This document shows, piece after piece, positions 16,190-37,051 of a DNA stretch of 64,000 bases. Source of the stretch: Pseudomonadota bacterium (GTDB taxonomy: Bacteria > Pseudomonadota > Gammaproteobacteria > Burkholderiales > Rhodocyclaceae); contig CAUJIV010000022.1 in the NCBI GenBank assembly GCA_963205435.1, forward strand, positions 1-64,000, given 5' to 3'. A program made the position numbers and the translations under genes. The notes beneath the pieces were generated by a model. That model saw nothing but the letters and a program-made list of their open reading frames with translations. It was not told the DNA's origin and made no database searches. Numbering within the stretch: the stretch's first letter is position 1; each line of letters opens with the position of its first letter.

Positions 16190-17479
16190 TCACGGAACGA
16201 TCATGCCGAGCTTCTGCGGCAGCCACAGCGACAGCGGCGGCCAGTAGGTGACGAGGGCAAGGAACACCAGCATGGTCAGCAGCCACGGCCAGACCGCCTT
16301 GGTCATGTCGGTCAGGCCGAGCTTGCTGATGCCGCTGGCGACGTAGAGGTTGAGCCCGACCGGCGGCGTGATCATGCCGATCTCCATGTTTACCGTGATC
16401 ATGACGCCGAAATGGACCGGGTCGATGCCCAGCTTCATGGCGATGGGAAAGAGGATCGGCGCGGTGATGAGAATGATCGAGGCGGCCTCCATGAAGTTGC
16501 CCATCAGCAGCAGCAGGATGTTCACCGCCAGCAGGAAGCCGATGGTGCCGAGGCCGCTCGAGAGCAGCCACTCGGAAATCGCCTGCGGGATGTTCTCGTG
16601 CGTCAGCAGGAAGGAGAACAGGACGGCGTTGGTGATGATGTAGAGCAGCATCGCGCTCATGTTGGCCGAGGCCAGCAGCGTCTTCGGCACGTCCTTCAGG
16701 CGCATGTCCTTGTAGACGAAGACGGCGACGAAGAAGGCATAGACGGCGCTCATCGCCGCCGCCTCGGTCGGCGTGAACACGCCCGAATAGATGCCGCCCA
16801 TGACGACGACGATCAGCAGCAACCCCCACACCGATTCGCGAAAGGCCGTGATTCGCTCGCTCCAGCCGGCGCGTCTCTCGCGCGGATAGTTGTTCTTCCA
16901 GGCGCGGCGCCAGGTCGTGAACATCAGCATGGCGGCGAGCACGATGCCGGGGATGACACCGGCCATGAAGAGGGCGCCGATCGAACTGTTGGTCGACACC
17001 GCGTACATCACCATGACGATGGAGGGCGGGATGAGGATGCCGAGGCCGCCGGCCGAAGCCACCACGCCGGCGCCGAACTTGAGCGGGTAGCCGGCCTTGA
17101 CCATCGCCGGGATGAGGATCGAGCCGATCGCCACGACGGTGGCCGGGCTGGAGCCCGAGATCGCGGCGAACAGCGAGCAGGCCACCACGGCGCCCAGTCC
17201 CAGCCCGCCCGGCCAGTGGCCGACCAGCGAGGTGGCGAAGCGGATCATGCGCCGCGCCACGCCGCCGTGGGTGAGGAAATTGCCGGCGAGGATGAAGAAC
17301 GGGATGGCCATGATCTCGAATTTCTCGATGCCGGTGAACAGCTTCAGCGCCACGGCCTCGATCGGCACCTGGGTCATGAAGAAGAGAAAGGTCAGCACCG
17401 TCAGGCCGAGGGCGATCGACACCGGCATGCCGATCAGCATGGTCACGGCGAGCAGGGCGAAGATGATGGCGGTATTCAT
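16190..17479 (-). CDS. dctM: TRAP transporter large permease DctM
   Basis: Multi-TM, FAAISGSSPATVVAIGSI, TPTEAAAMSAVYAF motifs. Confidence 0.95.
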   Translation of the reverse strand: MNTAIIFALLAVTMLIGMPVSIALGLTVLTFLFFMTQVPIEAVALKLFTGIEKFEIMAIPFFILAGNFLTHGGVARRMIRFATSLVGHWPGGLGLGAVVACSLFAAISGSSPATVVAIGSILIPAMVKAGYPLKFGAGVVASAGGLGILIPPSIVMVMYAVSTNSSIGALFMAGVIPGIVLAAMLMFTTWRRAWKNNYPRERRAGWSERITAFRESVWGLLLIVVVMGGIYSGVFTPTEAAAMSAVYAFFVAVFVYKDMRLKDVPKTLLASANMSAMLLYIITNAVLFSFLLTHENIPQAISEWLLSSGLGTIGFLLAVNILLLLMGNFMEAASIILITAPILFPIAMKLGIDPVHFGVMITVNMEIGMITPPVGLNLYVASGISKLGLTDMTKAVWPWLLTMLVFLALVTYWPPLSLWLPQKLGMIVP

Positions 17480-18156
17480 GGCCGACCCTCCCCGTCGCCC
17501 GGGCGCGGGTGCAGGTCGTCATCCATGCGATATATGTCGTCCTCCTCGCCGGGCGCCTGGCCGGACGCCCCCATGCCCTCGACATGACCATGGTCATGGT
17601 GCGGCAACTCGCCGTCGCGCACGAACCTGAAGCACACCTGGAGGAAGCGGAAGCACATCAGCCAGGATCCCAGCGGCACCGCCGAGTAGACGGCCCAGGT
17701 CGGCCATTCCAGGTCCGGCGTGGTCGGGCCCTCGAAAAGATTGCCGATGTCGAGGCCGAGGAACTTGAAAATGGCGTAATGGGCGCCGTTCTCCCAGACG
17801 AAGGCGGCGCCAAGCGTGCCGACGATGCCGGTGAACAGCGCGCCGCAAAGCAGTCCGAGAACGATGAATTTCCGGCGCTTGCCCTCGCCCAGGCTGTTGA
17901 TCAGGACATCGACGCCGACGTGGATGCCGGTGCGCACGCCGTAGGCCGCGCCGAACTTGGCCATCCAGACGAACAGGATGATGCACAGCTCCTGCGCCCA
18001 GCCCAGGTCGCGGGCCAGCAGCCAGTCCTGCACGCCGGGAATCGCCAGCCCGGAGGCGTAGCGATGGACGACGGCAATGAAGATGATCAGCGTCGCCGCG
18101 CCCATCAGCAGGGTGACGAACCATTCCTCCAGATGATCCAGCGCTCTCAACAGCAT
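17476..18156 (-). CDS. dctQ: TRAP transporter small permease DctQ
   Basis: MLLRALDHLEEWFVTLLMGAATLIIFIAVVHRY..., four hydrophobic segments, between dctP and dctM. Confidence 0.92.
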   Translation of the reverse strand: MLLRALDHLEEWFVTLLMGAATLIIFIAVVHRYASGLAIPGVQDWLLARDLGWAQELCIILFVWMAKFGAAYGVRTGIHVGVDVLINSLGEGKRRKFIVLGLLCGALFTGIVGTLGAAFVWENGAHYAIFKFLGLDIGNLFEGPTTPDLEWPTWAVYSAVPLGSWLMCFRFLQVCFRFVRDGELPHHDHGHVEGMGASGQAPGEEDDIYRMDDDLHPRPGDGEGRP

Positions 18157-18228
18157 CGTCTCTCCCGGCAAGAAAAAACCGCCACGCCCCGGAACCAAGG
18201 GCGTGGCGGCATGTCGGCTCGCGTCGGC

Positions 18229-19233
18229 TTACAGCTTGCCCGGATCGAAGCCGGTCTCCTTGTACACCGCCTCGATGATCTCCTTGCCGATGCGCGGCTC
18301 CATCTCCTTGTGGGTCTTCAGCATCGCCTTCTTCAGCGCCATGCGCTCGGCCGGCGTCGGCGTGTAGATCTGCGTCCTGCCGGAGGCGCGGACCTTTTCC
18401 AGCGCCTGGTCGTTTTCTTCCTTGGCGATCTTGTTGGCGTAGTCGGTCGCATCGGCGATGGCCTGCTCGAGCTGACCGCGCACGTCGGCCGGCAGACCGT
18501 CCCAGAACTTCTTGTTGGTGATCACCGCATAGCCGAGGTAGCCGTGATTGGTCAGGCTCATGTGCTTCTGCACCTCGTGCATCTTCTGGGTGTAAAGGTT
18601 GGAGTGCGGGTTCTCGGTGCCGTCCACGACGCCGGTCTGCAGCGCCTGGTAGACCTCGGAGAAGGCCATCACCTGGGGAATCGCGCCGACCGAGCGCATC
18701 TGGGATTCCAGCACCTTGGAGGACTGGATGCGCATCTTCAGCCCCCTGTAATCCTCGGGATTCTTCAGCTGCCGGTTGGCCGACATCGACTTGAAGCCGT
18801 TGTCCCAGAAAGCCAGGCCGACGATGCCCTTCGGCTCGAGCTTGGCCATCAGCTGCTTGCCGACCGCCCCCTTGGTGATCTTGTGCAGGTCGTCATAGTT
18901 GTCGAAGATGAAGGGCAGGTCGAAAACCTCGAATTCCTTCGCGCCGAGCGGGCCGAATTTCGCCAGCGAGGGGGCCAGCATCTGCACGGCGCCGATCTGC
19001 AGCGCCTCGACCTCCTCCTTGTCCTTGTAAAGGGTGCTGTTGTGATAGACCTCGAAATTAACCCGGCCCTTGGTCAGCTCCTCGGCCCGCTTCTTCAGGT
19101 ATTCGGCGGCCTTGCCCTTGGGCGTGTCCGCCGCCGCAACGTGGCTGAACTTGATGTTGATCGGCTGCTGGGCCGCCGCGGCCGCCGAGAAGGCCAGCGC
19201 CACGGCGCCGATTATCAGGGAATGCAGTTTCAT
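18229..19233 (-). CDS. dctP: TRAP transporter substrate-binding protein DctP
   Basis: Signal peptide, IKFSHVAAADTPKGKAAEYLKKRAEELTKGRV, DGTENPHSNLYTQKMHEVQK. Confidence 0.95.
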   Translation of the reverse strand: MKLHSLIIGAVALAFSAAAAAQQPINIKFSHVAAADTPKGKAAEYLKKRAEELTKGRVNFEVYHNSTLYKDKEEVEALQIGAVQMLAPSLAKFGPLGAKEFEVFDLPFIFDNYDDLHKITKGAVGKQLMAKLEPKGIVGLAFWDNGFKSMSANRQLKNPEDYRGLKMRIQSSKVLESQMRSVGAIPQVMAFSEVYQALQTGVVDGTENPHSNLYTQKMHEVQKHMSLTNHGYLGYAVITNKKFWDGLPADVRGQLEQAIADATDYANKIAKEENDQALEKVRASGRTQIYTPTPAERMALKKAMLKTHKEMEPRIGKEIIEAVYKETGFDPGKL

Positions 19234-19645: not shown

Positions 19646-22627
19646 TCAATTCGCCCGCCGCACCCGGCAGAGCAATTGCTTGAGATTCGTCTGGTCCGAG
19701 ACCGGGTCTCTCTGCATCTTGTCGGTGAGGAAATTCACCGAGCGCCACGGGTGGAAGGGCTGGCGCTCGCCCCAGCCGATCGGGATGAAGACCGCGTCGC
19801 GGCGAATGCCGGCATGCACCCAGGCGATCGCCTCGATGGCGCCATGGGCCGTTTCCACCCGCACGCGGTCGCCGTCGGCGATTCCGAGCGCGGCCGCCTT
19901 GTCCGTGTGGATCTGGCAGAAAAGATCCGGCAGCATCTCCTGGGCCTGCCAGAAATAATGAGTCCAGCTGTGGAAGTGGGAAGCCGAGGGCCGGCCGGTG
20001 ACCAGTTCCAGGTCGAAGCCGCGGCGGCGCAGTTGCGCCGCCGGATGCGCCGCGCCGCCGTCGGCGACGATGCGCGCCTGCGCGCTGAACGTTTCCGGGC
20101 TGTTGAACGGCGAAATGACGCCCTCCTCGCCGTCCCCCTGCAGCAATTGGACGTAGGGTAGGTCGACCAGTTGCTCGCGCTCGCTGTAGAACTGAGGCAG
20201 TGCCGAGAGGCCGAGCAGGGCGAATTTGGCCTCCTGCTCCTCGGTCCAGAACTCGAGCTTGCCGGACGCGGTCGGGAAGCGCCGCCCCGGCGCGCCGCCC
20301 GACACCGTCGTGCCTTCGAGATAGAGGGTCTCGATCTCCGGCGCGTCCTCGCTCGCCACTGGCTGGCGCACCCAGCGGTAGGGCACGGAATGCAGGCGCT
20401 TCTGGGTGCAGCCGCGCAGGGCGTCGTTGTCGATGCAGACGCGGTCCCACAGCACGGCCGGGTCCTTGTATTCCTCCTTCATCACGTCGTCGAAGCCGAA
20501 GCGCTTGCCCAGCTCGATCCAGATCCAGCTGTCGGCCCTCGCCTCGCCAGGCGGGTCGATCAGCTTGTCGATCCAGACGACGCGACGGTCGTCGTTGGCG
20601 CGGCTGATGTCGCCCTTTTCGATGCCGCTCGCCGCCGGCAGCACGTAGTCGGCGAAGGCGGATGTCTCGTTGGGGAAAAGCTCGATATGCACGAGCAGGT
20701 CGAGGGCCAGCATGGCCTCGCGGACCTTCGTCTGGTCCGGCCACTGGGCCAGCGGATTGTTGCTGGTGATGAACGCCCGGATCGGATAGGGCTTGCCGGC
20801 AAGCATCGCCTCGGTCCAGCCGGAGGGTGAATGGCGCACGCGCGGGCGCCCGATGCGGGCCTTGCGCCCTTCCGGCACGCGGGCGGTGATCGGCGTGATC
20901 GCGCTCATGTTGAAGTAGGCGCCGCCGCGCCGCCCCCAGTTGCCGGTGATGGCGGCGACGAACATCAGCACGCGGTTGGTCTGGGTGCTGTTGCTGTGCT
21001 GGTTGACGCCGCGGCTGGCGAAGATGACGCAGCCGTCGGCGGCGGCGATCTCCTCGGCCAGACGGCGGATCTCGGCCGCCGGCAGGCTGGTGACGCCTTC
21101 GGCCCATTCCGGGGTGTAGCCCTGCCGCAGGATGTAGTCGCGCCACGTCTCGAAGCCCAGCAGCCAGCGCTCGCAGAAGTCGCGGTCGTGCAGGTCGTTG
21201 GCGAGGATGTGCTGCGCCAGCGCCAGGCCCAGGGCCATGTCGGTGCCGGGGCGGATCGCCAGCCAGCGGTCCGCCTTCGATGCGGTGACGGTCAGGCGGG
21301 GATCGACCACCACCATGCGGGCGCCGCTCTTCAGGCGCCAGTCGTTGATCATGCCGAAATAGACCGGGCGCGTCTCCGCCTGGTTGTCGCCGATGTAGAC
21401 GAAGAGCCGGGCCGCGCCAAGGTCGGTCTCGGTGTAGCTGTTGCCGCTGCCGATGGCGCCCTGGACGAGTTCGAAGGCAACGTTCTTGCCGCTGGCGCAA
21501 AACGGCTCGGTGCCGTCCTTGTTGGGCGTTCCCCACAGGTCGGCGAACATCTTGGTCGTGGCGCGCGAGTCGATGAGCCCGGTGCGCGCGCCGATGTACA
21601 TGGCCAGAGCCTCGCTGCCGTGGGCCTCGCGCACAGCCCTGAGCCGGCCGGCTATCTCGTCCAGGGCCTGGTCCCAGGAGATGCGCTCGAAACGCCCTTC
21701 GCCGCGGGCGCCGACGCGCTTCTGCGGATAGAGCAGGCGCTGGTCGCTGTTGTACATCTGCAGGGTGAGCTGCGACTTGGCGCAGATCCTGCCCTGCAGC
21801 AGCGGATCATCCTCGTTGCCGGTGATCTTCACCAGCCGGTCGCCCTTGAGGTGGAAGTTCAGGCTGCAGCAATTGAAGCAGAGGTTGCAGCCGCCCGGCA
21901 CGACGCGGTCGGCCTTCGCCTCCGCGCGCGGCACGCCATACGGGAAGGCGGCCTCTTGCCCGGCCATCACGGCTTGCGGCGCGGCGGCGTCCAGCAGGGC
22001 CGGCCGCTGCCAGGCGGGCGCCGGCGCGATGCCGTAGTCCGCGCCGCGGGCCGGCTTCAGGTAGACCGTCGCCGGACCCTGCAGGAAGTAATCGTTGTCG
22101 AGCCGCTCGCGCCCCGCCTGTGCCGCCTCGGCCAGCAGGTCTTCGCGCCGCCCGAAGCGGATGGCCCGGGTCGGGCAGACGCTGGCGCAGGCGGTGGTCG
22201 TCGCACCCTCCGCCCGCCGCTCCTCGCACAGGTCGCACTTGACCGCATGGTGGCCCTTGGCGTCATAGCCCATCGCCGAGTAGGGGCAGGCGATGACGCA
22301 TTCGCCGCAGCCGGTGCAGCGCGACTCGACGACGCGCACGATGCCGGTTTCAGGGTCCTTCTCGATCGCCTTGGGATGAACCGGGCAGGCGCGCAGGCAG
22401 GCGGGCCGCTCGCATTGCTGGCAGGGAAGATCGAGGAAGGCCAGCCCCGCCGTCTCGAGTGCGCCGGTCCAGACGACCTTGTTCCGGTACTCGCCCGGCC
22501 CGAGCCGGTTCTCCTGCTTGCAGGCCGCCTCGCAACTCCTGCAGCCGGTGCAGCGCTCGAGATCGATCATCAGCGCCAGTCGGGCGCTGCCGCCTTCCTT
22601 CTCTTCATTTTTCACGACGCTTACCAT
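19646..22627 (-). CDS. Fused [4Fe-4S] electron-transfer / molybdopterin oxidoreductase (DMSO reductase family)
   Basis: N-terminal motifs CTGCRSCEAAC, CQQCERPACLRAC, CTGCGECVIAC and CDLC-X12-CASVC, followed in the same frame by a MopB domain (CNLCFNCC...GRICAKSQ, TEPFCASGKN, VVDPRLTVTASKADRWLAIRPGTDMALGLA). No signal peptide or Tat motif at the chosen start. Confidence 0.92.
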   Translation of the reverse strand: MVSVVKNEEKEGGSARLALMIDLERCTGCRSCEAACKQENRLGPGEYRNKVVWTGALETAGLAFLDLPCQQCERPACLRACPVHPKAIEKDPETGIVRVVESRCTGCGECVIACPYSAMGYDAKGHHAVKCDLCEERRAEGATTTACASVCPTRAIRFGRREDLLAEAAQAGRERLDNDYFLQGPATVYLKPARGADYGIAPAPAWQRPALLDAAAPQAVMAGQEAAFPYGVPRAEAKADRVVPGGCNLCFNCCSLNFHLKGDRLVKITGNEDDPLLQGRICAKSQLTLQMYNSDQRLLYPQKRVGARGEGRFERISWDQALDEIAGRLRAVREAHGSEALAMYIGARTGLIDSRATTKMFADLWGTPNKDGTEPFCASGKNVAFELVQGAIGSGNSYTETDLGAARLFVYIGDNQAETRPVYFGMINDWRLKSGARMVVVDPRLTVTASKADRWLAIRPGTDMALGLALAQHILANDLHDRDFCERWLLGFETWRDYILRQGYTPEWAEGVTSLPAAEIRRLAEEIAAADGCVIFASRGVNQHSNSTQTNRVLMFVAAITGNWGRRGGAYFNMSAITPITARVPEGRKARIGRPRVRHSPSGWTEAMLAGKPYPIRAFITSNNPLAQWPDQTKVREAMLALDLLVHIELFPNETSAFADYVLPAASGIEKGDISRANDDRRVVWIDKLIDPPGEARADSWIWIELGKRFGFDDVMKEEYKDPAVLWDRVCIDNDALRGCTQKRLHSVPYRWVRQPVASEDAPEIETLYLEGTTVSGGAPGRRFPTASGKLEFWTEEQEAKFALLGLSALPQFYSEREQLVDLPYVQLLQGDGEEGVISPFNSPETFSAQARIVADGGAAHPAAQLRRRGFDLELVTGRPSASHFHSWTHYFWQAQEMLPDLFCQIHTDKAAALGIADGDRVRVETAHGAIEAIAWVHAGIRRDAVFIPIGWGERQPFHPWRSVNFLTDKMQRDPVSDQTNLKQLLCRVRRAN

Positions 22628-23397
22628 TCCGCAAGGTGCCACCAGGTGATGGCGCCGCCGTCGGCGACATAGCCGGCGAAGAAAGTCACGGTGACGACAT
22701 GCACCAGCACGCCGAACAGGAAAATCCAGCCAAGCGCCATGTGCAGGGGACGCCACCAGGCCTGGGTCGGCGGCACGGCGGCACGAACGCCGAGCAGCCG
22801 CGCCTCCTGCCGCGCCAGGCGGCGGTAGCGCAGGGCAAGCCGCGGGCTGCGCAGGAAGTGTGGCAGGTCGGCCGAAAACGTCGCCTCATCGGCATCGGGC
22901 GCCAGGCGCGCCAGCAGGGCGCGTTTCTGCCCGATCAGTTCGCGCAACTGCTGGCGTACCGCCGGGTCGGGCGCGGCGAAGCCCGGCGCCTTCCTGCCGA
23001 AGGTGGCGGACATGCGCCGCGAGCCGCGCAGCCGGGCCCAGACGCCGAGGATGACGATGGCGAGGAGCGCCAGCAGCAGCAGGGCAGGCGGGCGGCGCAG
23101 ATAGCCGCCGGAATGCACGGCGATCAGCACCAGGCCGGCGAGCGAGCACAGGACATGGGCGTTGAAACCGCTGCGCGGGCTGGCGCCGCCAGTGCGCTTG
23201 TACAGCGAGTAGAACATCGGCACCAGCAACAGGGCGAAACCGGCGACACCGGCCAGATACAGTTCCGGGCTGCCTGGCTCGCGCCAGGCCGGCGGCAGCC
23301 AGGCGCGCAGCAGGAACCACAGCGCCGTCAAGGCGACAGTGGCGCCGACCGCCAACTGCAGGCGGCTGTCCGAAAGATCAGAAACGGCTCGCGCCAT
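22621..23397 (-). CDS. Predicted bis-heme b transmembrane protein (ferric-reductase-like), partner of the molybdoenzyme
   Basis: About 6 hydrophobic segments with two H-X13-H pairs (HVLCSLAGLVLIAVH, HMALGWIFLFGVLVH); overlaps the start of the molybdoenzyme gene. Confidence 0.7.
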   Translation of the reverse strand: MARAVSDLSDSRLQLAVGATVALTALWFLLRAWLPPAWREPGSPELYLAGVAGFALLLVPMFYSLYKRTGGASPRSGFNAHVLCSLAGLVLIAVHSGGYLRRPPALLLLALLAIVILGVWARLRGSRRMSATFGRKAPGFAAPDPAVRQQLRELIGQKRALLARLAPDADEATFSADLPHFLRSPRLALRYRRLARQEARLLGVRAAVPPTQAWWRPLHMALGWIFLFGVLVHVVTVTFFAGYVADGGAITWWHLAEW

Positions 23398-23621
23398 GGC
23401 TGTTTGGCAAGGCAGGAACTGGGCGGGACATGGCGCTATGAGGGCCGCTTTTGCGATGCGGCACCGCTCGGCGCGAGGCATTCACATCGACTTGATTGGA
23501 CGCCCGGCCAACGCAAGCGCGCCGGGAAGTATTGTCGGCATTCTATCAAACGAAGCTTGCCATTTGAAACGACTTGACCGGCGGCAACCGAAGGAACCTG
23601 GCCCGACAAGAGAGCGACGGT

Positions 23622-33074: not shown

Positions 33075-33659
33075 ATGAGCGGCTACCTTTTCATTCTCAT
33101 CGGCGCGGTCTTCGTCAATAACGTCATCTTCGGCCGCGTCCTCGGCCTGTGCCCGTTCATGGGCGTGTCGAAGAAGCTGGAGACGGCTTTCGGCATGAGC
33201 GCGGCGACGACCTTCGTGCTGACCGTCGCCACCGGCGCCAGCTACCTCATCGACACCTACCTGCTGGTGCCGAATTCGCTCGAGTACCTGCGCACCCTGT
33301 CCTTCATCATCGTCATCGCCGGCCTCGTTCAGCTCACCGAGATGGTGATCCAGAAGGTCAGCCCGGTGCTGCACCAGGTGCTCGGCATCTACCTGCCGCT
33401 GATCACCACCAACTGCGCCGTGCTCGGCGTGCCGCTGCTCAACGTCGCCTACAAGTACAATCTTTTCGAGTCGCTGCTGTTCGGCTTCGGCAGCGCCGTC
33501 GGCTTCTCGCTGGCGCTGGTGCTGTTCGGCAGCCTGCGCGAGCGGCTCGAGGGCGCCGACGTTCCCGTGGCCTTCCGCGGCAACGCCATCGCCATGATCA
33601 CGGCCGGGCTGATGAGCATCGCCTTCATGGGCTTCGCCGGCCTCGACAAGTTCCACTGA
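33075..33659 (+). CDS. rsxA: Electron transport complex subunit RsxA/RnfA
   Basis: [41 protein letters not shown]. Confidence 0.97.
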
Positions 33660-34222
33660 TGCTCGCCGCCCTTCTCGTCATGGCCGGCATCGCGGTGGCG
33701 CTCGGCGCCCTGCTCGGCTATGCCTCGATCCGTTTCAAGGTCAAGGGTGATCCGCTGGTCGTCAAGATCGACGCCATCCTGCCGCAGACCCAGTGCGGCC
33801 AGTGCGGCTTTCCCGGCTGCAAGGCCTATGCCCAGGCCATCGCCAAGGGGGAGGCGGACATCAACCAGTGCCCGCCGGGCGGCGAAGAAGGCATCCGCAA
33901 GCTGGCCGACCTGCTCGGCAAGGAGATCAAGCCGCTCTCGGCCGAGCACGGCGTGGAAAAGCCGAAGCAGGTGGCCTTCATCGACGAGAGCGTCTGCATC
34001 GGCTGCACCCTGTGCACCCAGGCCTGCCCGGTCGATGCCATCGTCGGCGCCGCCAAGCAGATGCACACCATCGTCTCCGACCAATGCACCGGCTGCGAGC
34101 TGTGCGTCGCGCCCTGCCCGGTCGATTGCATCAGCATGGTGCCGGTGGAGGAGACGATCGAGACCTGGAAATGGCGGCATCCGGCGGAACTGGCCCGGCG
34201 CAAGGACAAGGAAACCACCTGA
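33659..34222 (+). CDS. rsxB: Electron transport complex subunit RsxB/RnfB
   Basis: [30 protein letters not shown]; two 4Fe-4S motifs. Confidence 0.97.
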
Positions 34223-35937
34223 TGCTCGCCACCCTGTTCAGGTTCAAGGGCGGCATCAAGCCTGCATCGCACAAGGACGAGTCGTCGCGGGTGCCGATCG
34301 GCCGCGCACCGCTGCCGCCGCGACTGATCGTGCCCCTGCGCCAGAGCGCCGGCGGCACGCCCTTGCCGCTGGTCAGGCCCGGGCAGAAAGTGCTCAAGGG
34401 CGAGCGCATCGGCGCGCCGGAGGGAAATTTCTCCGCCGCCATCCATGCCCCTTCTTCGGGCACCGTGCTGGCCATCGAGGCACGCCCGCTGCCGCATCCC
34501 TCGGAGCTGTCCGCACTCTGTGTCGAAATCGAGACAGACGGCGAAGAACGCTGGATCGAGCGCGCGCCGGTCGATTACCAGACGCAGTCGCCCGACATCC
34601 TGCGCGACCTGCTGCGCGACGCCGGCATCGTCGGCCTCGGCGGCGCCACCTTCCCCAGCCACGTCAAGCTGCGGCCGGGCAGCGCCGGCCGCATCGAGAC
34701 CCTGGTCATCAACGGCGCCGAGTGCGAACCGTGGATCACCTGCGACGACATGCTGATGCGCGAGCGCGCCGCCGATCTCCTGCGCGGCATCGCCATCCTG
34801 CGTCACATCGTCTCGGCCGAACGCGTGCTGGTCGGCATCGAGGACAACAAGCCGCAGGCGATCGCCGCCATGCGCGCCGCCGCCGCGCAGGCGGAGGGTA
34901 TCGAGGTGGTGCCGGTGCCGACGCGCTACCCGGCCGGCGGCGAGAAGCAGCTGATCCGCGTCCTCACCGGCATCGAGATCCCCTACGGCAAGCTGGGGAC
35001 GGAATTCGGCGTGCAGTGCTTCAACGTCGGCACCGCCTACAGCGTGTACCGCGCCATCGAGCTGGGCGAGCCGCTCGTCTCGCGCATCGTCACCCTGGCC
35101 GGCAACATGGAGCGGCCGGCCAACTACGAAGTGCTGATCGGCACGCCGATCGACCAGCTGCTCGAACTGGCGCGACCGAAGCCCGACACCGACCGCTTCA
35201 TCGTCGGCGGCCCGATGATGGGCTTCCGGCTGCCGCGCACCGACCTGCCGGTGACCAAGGGCGCCAACTGCATTCTCGCCGCCAGCCAGGCCCTGTTCCC
35301 CGAGCCGGGCGAGGAAATGCCCTGCATTCGCTGCGGCGCCTGCACCCTGGTCTGCCCGGTCGAGCTGCAGCCGCACGAGCTGTACTGGTTCGCCCGCTCG
35401 AAGAATTTCGGCAAGGCGCAGGAATACCACATCTTCGACTGCATCGAGTGCGGTTGCTGCGCCTACGTCTGCCCCTCGAACATCCGCCTGGTCGATTACT
35501 ACCGCTTCGCCAAGACCTCGATGCGCGCGCTGGAGCGGGACAAGGCGGCGGCGGACACGGCGCGCGAGCGCTACGAATTCCGCAATTACCGCGCCGAGCG
35601 CGAACAGAAGGAGAAGACCGAGCGGCTGGCGGCGAAGACCGCGGCGGCGCGACAGGGCCTGGCCGCCGGCGAGAAGGCGCCGGCGGCGGCAACGGCAGCC
35701 GCCTCTTCCGCCGCCGGCGCCGACGAGCAGGCCCTGCCTCTGCTCGACGAGGCCAAGCGGGCCCTGATCGCCGCCGCCATCGAGCGCACGCAGTCGAAAA
35801 AAGACGGCGGCGACGCGCCAGCGGCGATGCCGGCGCCGCTGCCGGTCGGCGAGACGCCTCAGCGCGAAGTCGAGTTCTACCGCATGCTGGTGCGCGAAAC
35901 GGCGAAGACGTCATCGCCCGAGGATCCGCTCCAGTGA
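34222..35937 (+). CDS. rsxC: Electron transport complex subunit RsxC/RnfC
   Basis: FKGGIKPASHKDESS..., CIRCGACTLVCP and CIECGCCAYVCPS. Confidence 0.97.
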   Translation: MLATLFRFKGGIKPASHKDESSRVPIGRAPLPPRLIVPLRQSAGGTPLPLVRPGQKVLKGERIGAPEGNFSAAIHAPSSGTVLAIEARPLPHPSELSALCVEIETDGEERWIERAPVDYQTQSPDILRDLLRDAGIVGLGGATFPSHVKLRPGSAGRIETLVINGAECEPWITCDDMLMRERAADLLRGIAILRHIVSAERVLVGIEDNKPQAIAAMRAAAAQAEGIEVVPVPTRYPAGGEKQLIRVLTGIEIPYGKLGTEFGVQCFNVGTAYSVYRAIELGEPLVSRIVTLAGNMERPANYEVLIGTPIDQLLELARPKPDTDRFIVGGPMMGFRLPRTDLPVTKGANCILAASQALFPEPGEEMPCIRCGACTLVCPVELQPHELYWFARSKNFGKAQEYHIFDCIECGCCAYVCPSNIRLVDYYRFAKTSMRALERDKAAADTARERYEFRNYRAEREQKEKTERLAAKTAAARQGLAAGEKAPAAATAAASSAAGADEQALPLLDEAKRALIAAAIERTQSKKDGGDAPAAMPAPLPVGETPQREVEFYRMLVRETAKTSSPEDPLQ

Positions 35938-36031
35938 CGGCTTCCGAGCGCCCGAATGCGGTCCTCGTCCTGCCGCGGCCGCATCCCGATGGCGGCCGGC
36001 CGATGAGGCCGGTGCCGTAAGCTGCCCGCAC

Positions 36032-37051
36032 ATGGTCAACTCGCCCCATCTGCACAAGCCGGTCAGCGTCCGCCTCGTCATGGGCAAGGTGCTGCTCGCC
36101 CTCGTCCCCGGCATCGCCATCTACGTCTGGTTCTTCGGCGCGGCGATTCTCGTGCAGATCGCGCTGGCCTCGGCGGCGGCGCTGGCCGGCGAGGCGGCCA
36201 TGCTCAAGGCGCGCGGCAAGCCGCTCGAACTGTACCTCGGCGATGGCAGCGCGCTGGTCACCGCCTGGCTGATTGCGCTGGCCTTCCCGCCGATCGTGCC
36301 CTGGTGGCTCACCGTCAGCGCCACGCTGTTCGCCATCGTCATCGCCAAGCACCTGTTCGGCGGCCTCGGCCAGAACCCGTTCAACCCGGCCATGGTCGCC
36401 TTCGCCGTCTGCATCATCGCCTTCCCGGCGCTGATGGCGAAATGGCCGGCCGCCGGCTTCACCGATTTCGGCGCGCAGATGGCCATCGTCTTCGGCGGCC
36501 AGGCGCCGCTCGACGCCGTCACCCTCGCCACCCCGCTCGATTCGCTGCGCACCCACCTGTCGCTGCCCGAAGCGCATGCCACCGTCGCCAACGTCGCCCG
36601 CAGCGAACCGGGGTTCGGCCATTTCGGCGGCAGGGGCTGGGAATGGGTCGGGCTCGGCTGGCTGCTCGGCGGCCTCTGGCTGCTGCAGCAGCGCGTGTTC
36701 ACCTGGCATGTTCCGCTGGCCTTCCTCGCCGTGCTGGCGCTGATCGCCGGCGGCTTCAGCCTCGCCCAGCCGGAGCGCTTCGCCGGCCCGCTCTACCACC
36801 TCGCCAGCGGCGGCACCCTGCTTGCGGCCTTCTTCATCCTCACCGACCCGGTTTCTGGCGCGACGACGCCGCGCGGCAAGCTGATCTTCGCCGCCGGCGC
36901 CGCGCTGCTCGTCTGGATCATCCGCACCTTCGGCGCCTATCCCGACGGCATCGCCTTCGCCGTCCTGCTGATGAACCTGAGCGTGCCGCTGATCGACATG
37001 GGCACGCAGCCGCCGGTGTTCGGCCACAAGCGCAAGGGAGGCGCGCCATGA
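36032..37051 (+). CDS. rsxD: Electron transport complex subunit RsxD/RnfD
   Basis: MVNSPHLHKPVSVRLVMGKVLLALVPG..., GGLGQNPFNPAMV. Confidence 0.97.
   Translation: MVNSPHLHKPVSVRLVMGKVLLALVPGIAIYVWFFGAAILVQIALASAAALAGEAAMLKARGKPLELYLGDGSALVTAWLIALAFPPIVPWWLTVSATLFAIVIAKHLFGGLGQNPFNPAMVAFAVCIIAFPALMAKWPAAGFTDFGAQMAIVFGGQAPLDAVTLATPLDSLRTHLSLPEAHATVANVARSEPGFGHFGGRGWEWVGLGWLLGGLWLLQQRVFTWHVPLAFLAVLALIAGGFSLAQPERFAGPLYHLASGGTLLAAFFILTDPVSGATTPRGKLIFAAGAALLVWIIRTFGAYPDGIAFAVLLMNLSVPLIDMGTQPPVFGHKRKGGAP

Follow-up and report, generated by a model that had tools for sequence, protein, structure and literature searches.

We identified, in a 64,000-nucleotide stretch of DNA from a member of the Rhodocyclaceae (the whole of which we call the window), a gene whose single polypeptide product is a four-[4Fe-4S] ferredoxin domain joined to a Mo-bisPGD (MopB) catalytic domain. 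The open-access literature that we searched held no description of such fused enzymes, which apparently belong to an undescribed family. On the sequence evidence we lean modestly towards the explanation that the enzyme is a separately evolved cytoplasmic sulfite:quinone oxidoreductase that would work like SoeABC; we infer its substrate, its direction, its hemes and quinone as its acceptor. By the tests made here, the fused enzyme is not a SoeABC member. There is perhaps an even chance that the wider account also holds, namely that the family comprises quinone-linked molybdoenzymes with a merged four-cluster and catalytic subunit and a di-heme cytochrome b anchor, and that it represents an independent origin of cytoplasmic sulfite oxidation, replacing SoeABC in the Halomonadaceae and supplementing it in sulfur oxidisers.

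Table 1. Positions in the window of the fused gene, its predicted sites and its neighbours.
Feature	Position	Strand	Remarks
Fused ferredoxin-MopB gene	19646..22627	minus	993 aa + stop, intact ORF
N-terminal four-[4Fe-4S] ferredoxin domain, residues 17-160	22148..22579	minus	Four Cys quartets; Pfam Fer4 families
FS0 [4Fe-4S] cysteines C247, C250, C254, C282, at start of MopB domain	21782..21889	minus	Molybdop_Fe4S4
Cys377, candidate Mo ligand (TEPFCASGK)	21497..21499	minus	Invariance and alignment
Membrane anchor gene	22621..23400	minus	259 aa; ORF can begin at 23481; putative di-heme cytochrome b
Promoter-like site 5' of anchor-fusion pair	23540..23568	minus	Consensus match only; 1 found vs 0.2 expected
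TRAP transporter genes dctPQM	16190-19233	minus	0.4 kb from fused gene

A sequence-only reading of the window had placed the frame correctly and described it as uninterrupted, but it missed that the gene lies on the minus strand and gave a length of 994 residues for what are 993 and a stop; the plus-strand frame over the same interval is interrupted by stops. The same reading proposed that an N-terminal Fe-S module and a catalytic domain share this frame, and suggested an HMM search to check the domain order. Pfam bears out the proposal, placing from N- to C-terminus a Fer4 dicluster, Molybdop_Fe4S4 (residues 241-291), Molybdopterin (297-709) and Molydop_binding (873-984). The best of the Fer4 dicluster matches is Fer4_11 (residues 64-161), with Fer4_2 matching from residue 19, and the ferredoxin domain matches PsrB, FdnH and DmsB-type chains. 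Scores above the Pfam cut-offs for PF00384, PF01568 and PF04879 (160.6, 78.7 and 30.7 bits) place the protein in the MopB (DMSO reductase) superfamily, as do its predicted cofactor sites, the FS0 cysteines and a Mo-ligand residue.

The cysteines that had been picked out from the single sequence as four ferredoxin motifs, an FS0 set and a candidate Mo ligand are conserved throughout the family. All 16 ferredoxin cysteines (C26/29/32/36, C69/72/77/81, C104/107/110/114 and C131/134/147/151), the four of FS0 and C377 are invariant, gaps apart, among 74 full-length fused homologues, and likewise in a 46-row alignment. Cys377 aligns with the ligand cysteine of NapA, PhsA and SoeA, and the residue that follows it in the fused rows gives CA, CD, CS or CG. 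We looked for a signal peptide or a transmembrane helix at the start of the protein and found neither, which supports the earlier suggestion that a Tat or Sec signal is absent and that the catalytic side is cytoplasmic. An AlphaFold2 model of the fused protein (46 sequences) reached a pLDDT of 85.7 and a pTM of 0.89, and in Foldseek it matched formate dehydrogenases, Nap, PsrA and ArrA through their catalytic chains.

Scanning one genome per species, we found 78 loci with the fused gene (52-77% identity), nearly all of them full-length fusions where the contig allows. The carriers are betaproteobacteria, gammaproteobacteria (including Halomonas, Vreelandella, Modicisalibacter, Spiribacter and the Olavius algarvensis Gamma 3 symbiont), alphaproteobacteria and Nitrospinota, and a further fused copy lies on a Pseudohalocynthiibacter plasmid. 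Isolate genomes with the fusion include those of Halomonas elongata, H. almeriensis, Vreelandella arcis and Tritonibacter multivorans; recurrence of the same fusion in independent contigs and in isolates rules out a frameshift or assembly artefact. The family is nevertheless rare: we found it in 2 of 368 further genomes sampled evenly across the class, in 0 of 15 congeners of the window's organism and in 0 of 44 other genomes of its family, the Rhodocyclaceae. One locus (L117, G120:C10:27790-28203) holds a second, broken C-terminal copy of the fused gene, with 72% identity and one internal TAG.

The true partner of the fused gene, overlooked in the sequence-only reading, is the anchor gene directly upstream, an arrangement that recurs in about 70 of 80 loci. 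The ATG of the fused gene overlaps the anchor stop codon (ATGGTAA, 22627-22621), and the two genes look like a single transcription unit. Two histidine pairs, each spaced 14 residues and carried on two helices, are the pattern of a di-heme cytochrome b. The anchor has this pattern in H82 and H96 (predicted helix 75-96) and H220 and H234 (predicted helix 211-240), all four of them invariant, and we infer that it is such a cytochrome. Pfam reports weak DUF4405 or cytochrome b561 similarity for the anchor, and not DmsC; profile and fold searches found no solved homologue. SoeC from two genomes that also carry the fused gene is of the DmsC type. In 14 betaproteobacterial loci (including L012, 3-2750), the anchor gene is itself preceded, on its own strand, by a gene of about 915 aa resembling ADP-forming acetate-CoA ligase.

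A phylogeny of MopB domains, which had been suggested along with the HMM search, recovers the fused domains as one clade (SH-aLRT 100), apart from the SoeA, PhsA, Dms, Nap and Fdh rows. The SoeA rows were picked by operon context (xsc, pta and soeABC in a Roseovarius and Tritonibacter); E. coli FdnG and FdhF are cut at the Sec codon, and FdnG was left out. Named ArrA, ArxA and TtrA sequences are not part of the tree, and its deep placement is limited by long branches. With ArrA model NF041714, we found no true ArrA in 229 class genomes, and the model gave the fused protein 138 of 1600 bits. A common clade of the fused domains and SoeA is rejected (AU p=0.0003), whereas one with PhsA is disfavoured (AU p=0.015), which is only moderate evidence because the PhsA rows have long branches. 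The tree and the AU test thus rule out that the protein is a SoeA-SoeB fusion. The likeness to SoeABC drawn in the earlier reading does not extend to kinship past the superfamily: the MopB domain falls outside the SoeA clade, the anchor is not of the DmsC type, and a canonical SoeABC is present elsewhere in the genome. Sister to the fused clade (SH-aLRT 99) are plasmid-encoded MopB proteins of Nostoc (L010, 8085-10601) and Streptomyces (L011, 7746-10271), each about 840 aa long, which have neither the ferredoxin domain nor an adjoining anchor gene and are joined to the fused clade by long branches. The Streptomyces plasmid gene adjoins the arsenic genes ACR3, ArsO and ArsC.

Set beside known systems, the fused enzyme shares with SoeABC of Allochromatium vinosum and Ruegeria pomeroyi a Cys-ligated MopB subunit, a four-cluster ferredoxin domain, a membrane anchor, a cytoplasmic location and a sulfonate or sulfur-oxidation context. 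The two differ in that SoeA and SoeB are separate products of a three-gene system, whereas the fused system has two genes, and in that SoeC, like DmsC, is heme-free, whereas the fused system's anchor is a putative di-heme cytochrome b. PsrABC/PhsABC offer a match to the ferredoxin domain in PsrB, but they are exported and reductive and keep the two subunits separate. ActB of alternative complex III, like the fused enzyme, is a single chain that combines MopB with a DmsB/ArrB-like Fe-S domain. ActB has neither the Mo cofactor nor three of the [4Fe-4S] clusters any longer (PMC10100899). Its MopB domain precedes its Fe-S domain, whereas the fused enzyme has the Fe-S domain at the N-terminus and retains all ligands, that of Mo included, which sets it outside ActB. 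The formate dehydrogenase alpha subunits FdsA, FdhA of Methylorubrum and ForC/YjgC, which are top fold matches, also have an Fe-S domain before MopB in one polypeptide. Their N-terminal domain is of the iron-hydrogenase or complex I type (PMC10100899) rather than a DmsB-type four-cluster ferredoxin, and their partners are soluble, whereas the fused enzyme has a cytochrome b anchor.

The genes that accompany the fusion tie it to sulfonate metabolism in several lineages. Xsc (sulfoacetaldehyde acetyltransferase) frees sulfite from sulfoacetaldehyde, and xsc scores above the model cut-off in 34 of 50 carriers, a non-random sample with many related members, as against 20 of 369 class genomes. Restricted to gammaproteobacteria and betaproteobacteria, the counts are 29 of 36 carriers and 18 of 366 genomes (Fisher p 2e-25, uncorrected for kinship). 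In Halomonas elongata, the fused gene and its anchor share about 22 kb with xsc, pta, tauE, a TauXY-like pair, a MocR regulator, TRAP genes and a YeiH sulfate exporter. Downstream of the fused gene in betaproteobacterium L075 come a taurine-type ABC transporter (slightly below the curated cut-offs), phosphate acetyltransferase (pta) and xsc. A Spiribacter island combines the fused pair with xsc, SoeABC, a SulP permease, two TRAP systems, a GMC dehydrogenase and TauXY-like genes, so that in Spiribacter salilacus (L160, L161, L074) two candidate sulfite dehydrogenases occupy one island. Strain PBA was dropped as a possible sulfonate degrader, as the paper names it a helper strain.

SoeABC itself is found in comparable settings. 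It adjoins xsc and pta in Roseovarius and Tritonibacter, and the Ruegeria pomeroyi soeABC lies beside pta and tauR (PMC4334477). Rhodobacterales TauR regulons include bisC/hybA/dmsC (PMC5320631), which are Soe-like genes, and one would therefore expect clusters of this kind to include a sulfite dehydrogenase. SoeA is widespread in the class, in 105 of 369 genomes, and 31 of 50 carriers of the fused enzyme also have SoeABC. Nine carriers have xsc and lack SoeA, and the four Halomonadaceae carriers that we checked have xsc and the fused gene without SoeA. Both xsc and SoeA are missing from 10 of 50 carriers, mostly Nitrospinota. In Nitrospinota and likely relatives (L027, L041, L043, L087), the fused pair is intact and xsc, dsrA and SoeA are absent.

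In the mechanism that we propose, the two-gene unit would yield a membrane-bound, cytoplasm-facing iron-sulfur molybdoenzyme whose Mo-bisPGD centre, with its Cys ligand, would convert sulfite into sulfate. From there electrons would pass through FS0 to the four [4Fe-4S] clusters of the N-terminal domain, which would take the place of the SoeB, PsrB or DmsB subunit of other systems, and on through the two b-hemes of the anchor to quinone. An enzyme of another MopB lineage would thus do the work of SoeABC, using one chain for two of its subunits and a heme anchor where SoeABC has a DmsC anchor. In the Halomonadaceae, the enzyme would oxidise the sulfite that Xsc frees from taurine, and may supply the sulfite dehydrogenase that taurine catabolism lacks in that group; in the window's organism, a probable reverse-Dsr sulfur oxidiser, its role would be that of an additional sulfite dehydrogenase alongside SoeABC. 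Organosulfonate breakdown and lithotrophic sulfur oxidation alike end in sulfite oxidation, which genome surveys assign to SoeABC, SorAB or Apr/Sat; such surveys would overlook or misannotate a separate fused family. Five Fe-S clusters and a Mo site in one polypeptide would also make a compact system for the study of electron transfer.

Sulfur oxyanions, which the sequence-only reading had raised as one possibility, are the likeliest substrate class. Sulfite is favoured by the invariant cofactor ligands, the missing export signal, the enrichment and clustering of xsc, the xsc-bearing Halomonadaceae carriers without SoeA, the occurrence of soeABC in such clusters, and a ligand cysteine that is not followed by histidine as it is in formate dehydrogenase rows. 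It is weakened by the window's genome, which has SoeABC and no detected xsc, by the carriers with neither gene and the Spiribacter island with both enzymes, and by a MopB domain that is not near SoeA in the tree. Some of these points would suit oxidation of another reduced sulfur compound of the same pathways, such as sulfinate (hypotaurine) or thiosulfate, with quinone as acceptor: the frequent presence of SoeABC, including in the Spiribacter island and the window's genome, fits a division of labour, and so does a MopB lineage separate from that of SoeA. We regard this as possible though unlikely, as no gene for producing or consuming such a compound turned up as a steady neighbour, and it would leave the Halomonadaceae without any Soe-type sulfite dehydrogenase beside Xsc.

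That the enzyme runs in reverse, as a quinol-fed reductase of thiosulfate, polysulfide or another oxyanion, we consider improbable. The closest solved chain in a single-sequence PDB search is the polysulfide/thiosulfate reductase PsrA, the CASGK motif resembles the CPAGK of PhsA, and PhsABC likewise has a cytochrome b anchor, PhsC; yet PhsA and PsrA are exported and the fused protein is not, the AU test speaks against a PhsA clade, and the culturable carriers, Halomonas among them, are mostly aerobes that hold the gene among those for taurine dissimilation. A variant of membrane-bound formate dehydrogenase or nitrate reductase is very unlikely. Formate dehydrogenase alpha is the best NCBIfam model by E-value, and FdhF and Nap chains rank high in profile and fold searches, but TIGR01591 gives 309 of 666 bits, far under its curated cut-off, the Cys-His motif of formate dehydrogenase rows is absent, formate or nitrate genes are absent nearby, and the fused clade stands apart. 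We give hardly any credence to the view that the enzyme and the neighbouring TRAP transporter act together on an organic compound taken up from outside. The two are close on one strand, and Halomonas and Spiribacter likewise have TRAP genes in the vicinity of the fused gene, but Halomonas DctM is 31% identical to the window's and Halomonas DctP gave no match, and the gene order of congeners largely refutes the idea. The window's dctP is present in 14 of 16 genus genomes, where it follows tilS directly or a kinase/response-regulator pair, while the congeners lack the fused gene.

The usual order in the genus (L197-L204) is tilS, a divergent pair of PAS kinase and LuxR-type regulator genes, and dctPQM; in two congeners tilS directly precedes dctP. 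In the window the kinase/regulator pair is missing and the anchor-fusion pair occupies its place. Because the congeners keep tilS-dctPQM without the anchor-fusion pair, the latter is an accessory acquisition of the species, independent of the TRAP genes.

Elsewhere in the window's genome, which is 85% complete, xsc was not found. Other contigs carry a canonical SoeABC (L164, 5175-9979) and a Dsr cluster (L165, 7855-14087) that includes dsrA, dsrE and dsrK, the presence of dsrE indicating the oxidative (reverse) type. The organism is therefore probably a sulfur oxidiser with two Soe-like enzymes. Within the window, Rfam gave no match at 14-28 kb, and rnfA, rnfC and rnfD of an Rnf/Rsx electron transport complex, apparently unlinked to the fused gene, lie at 33075-37051.
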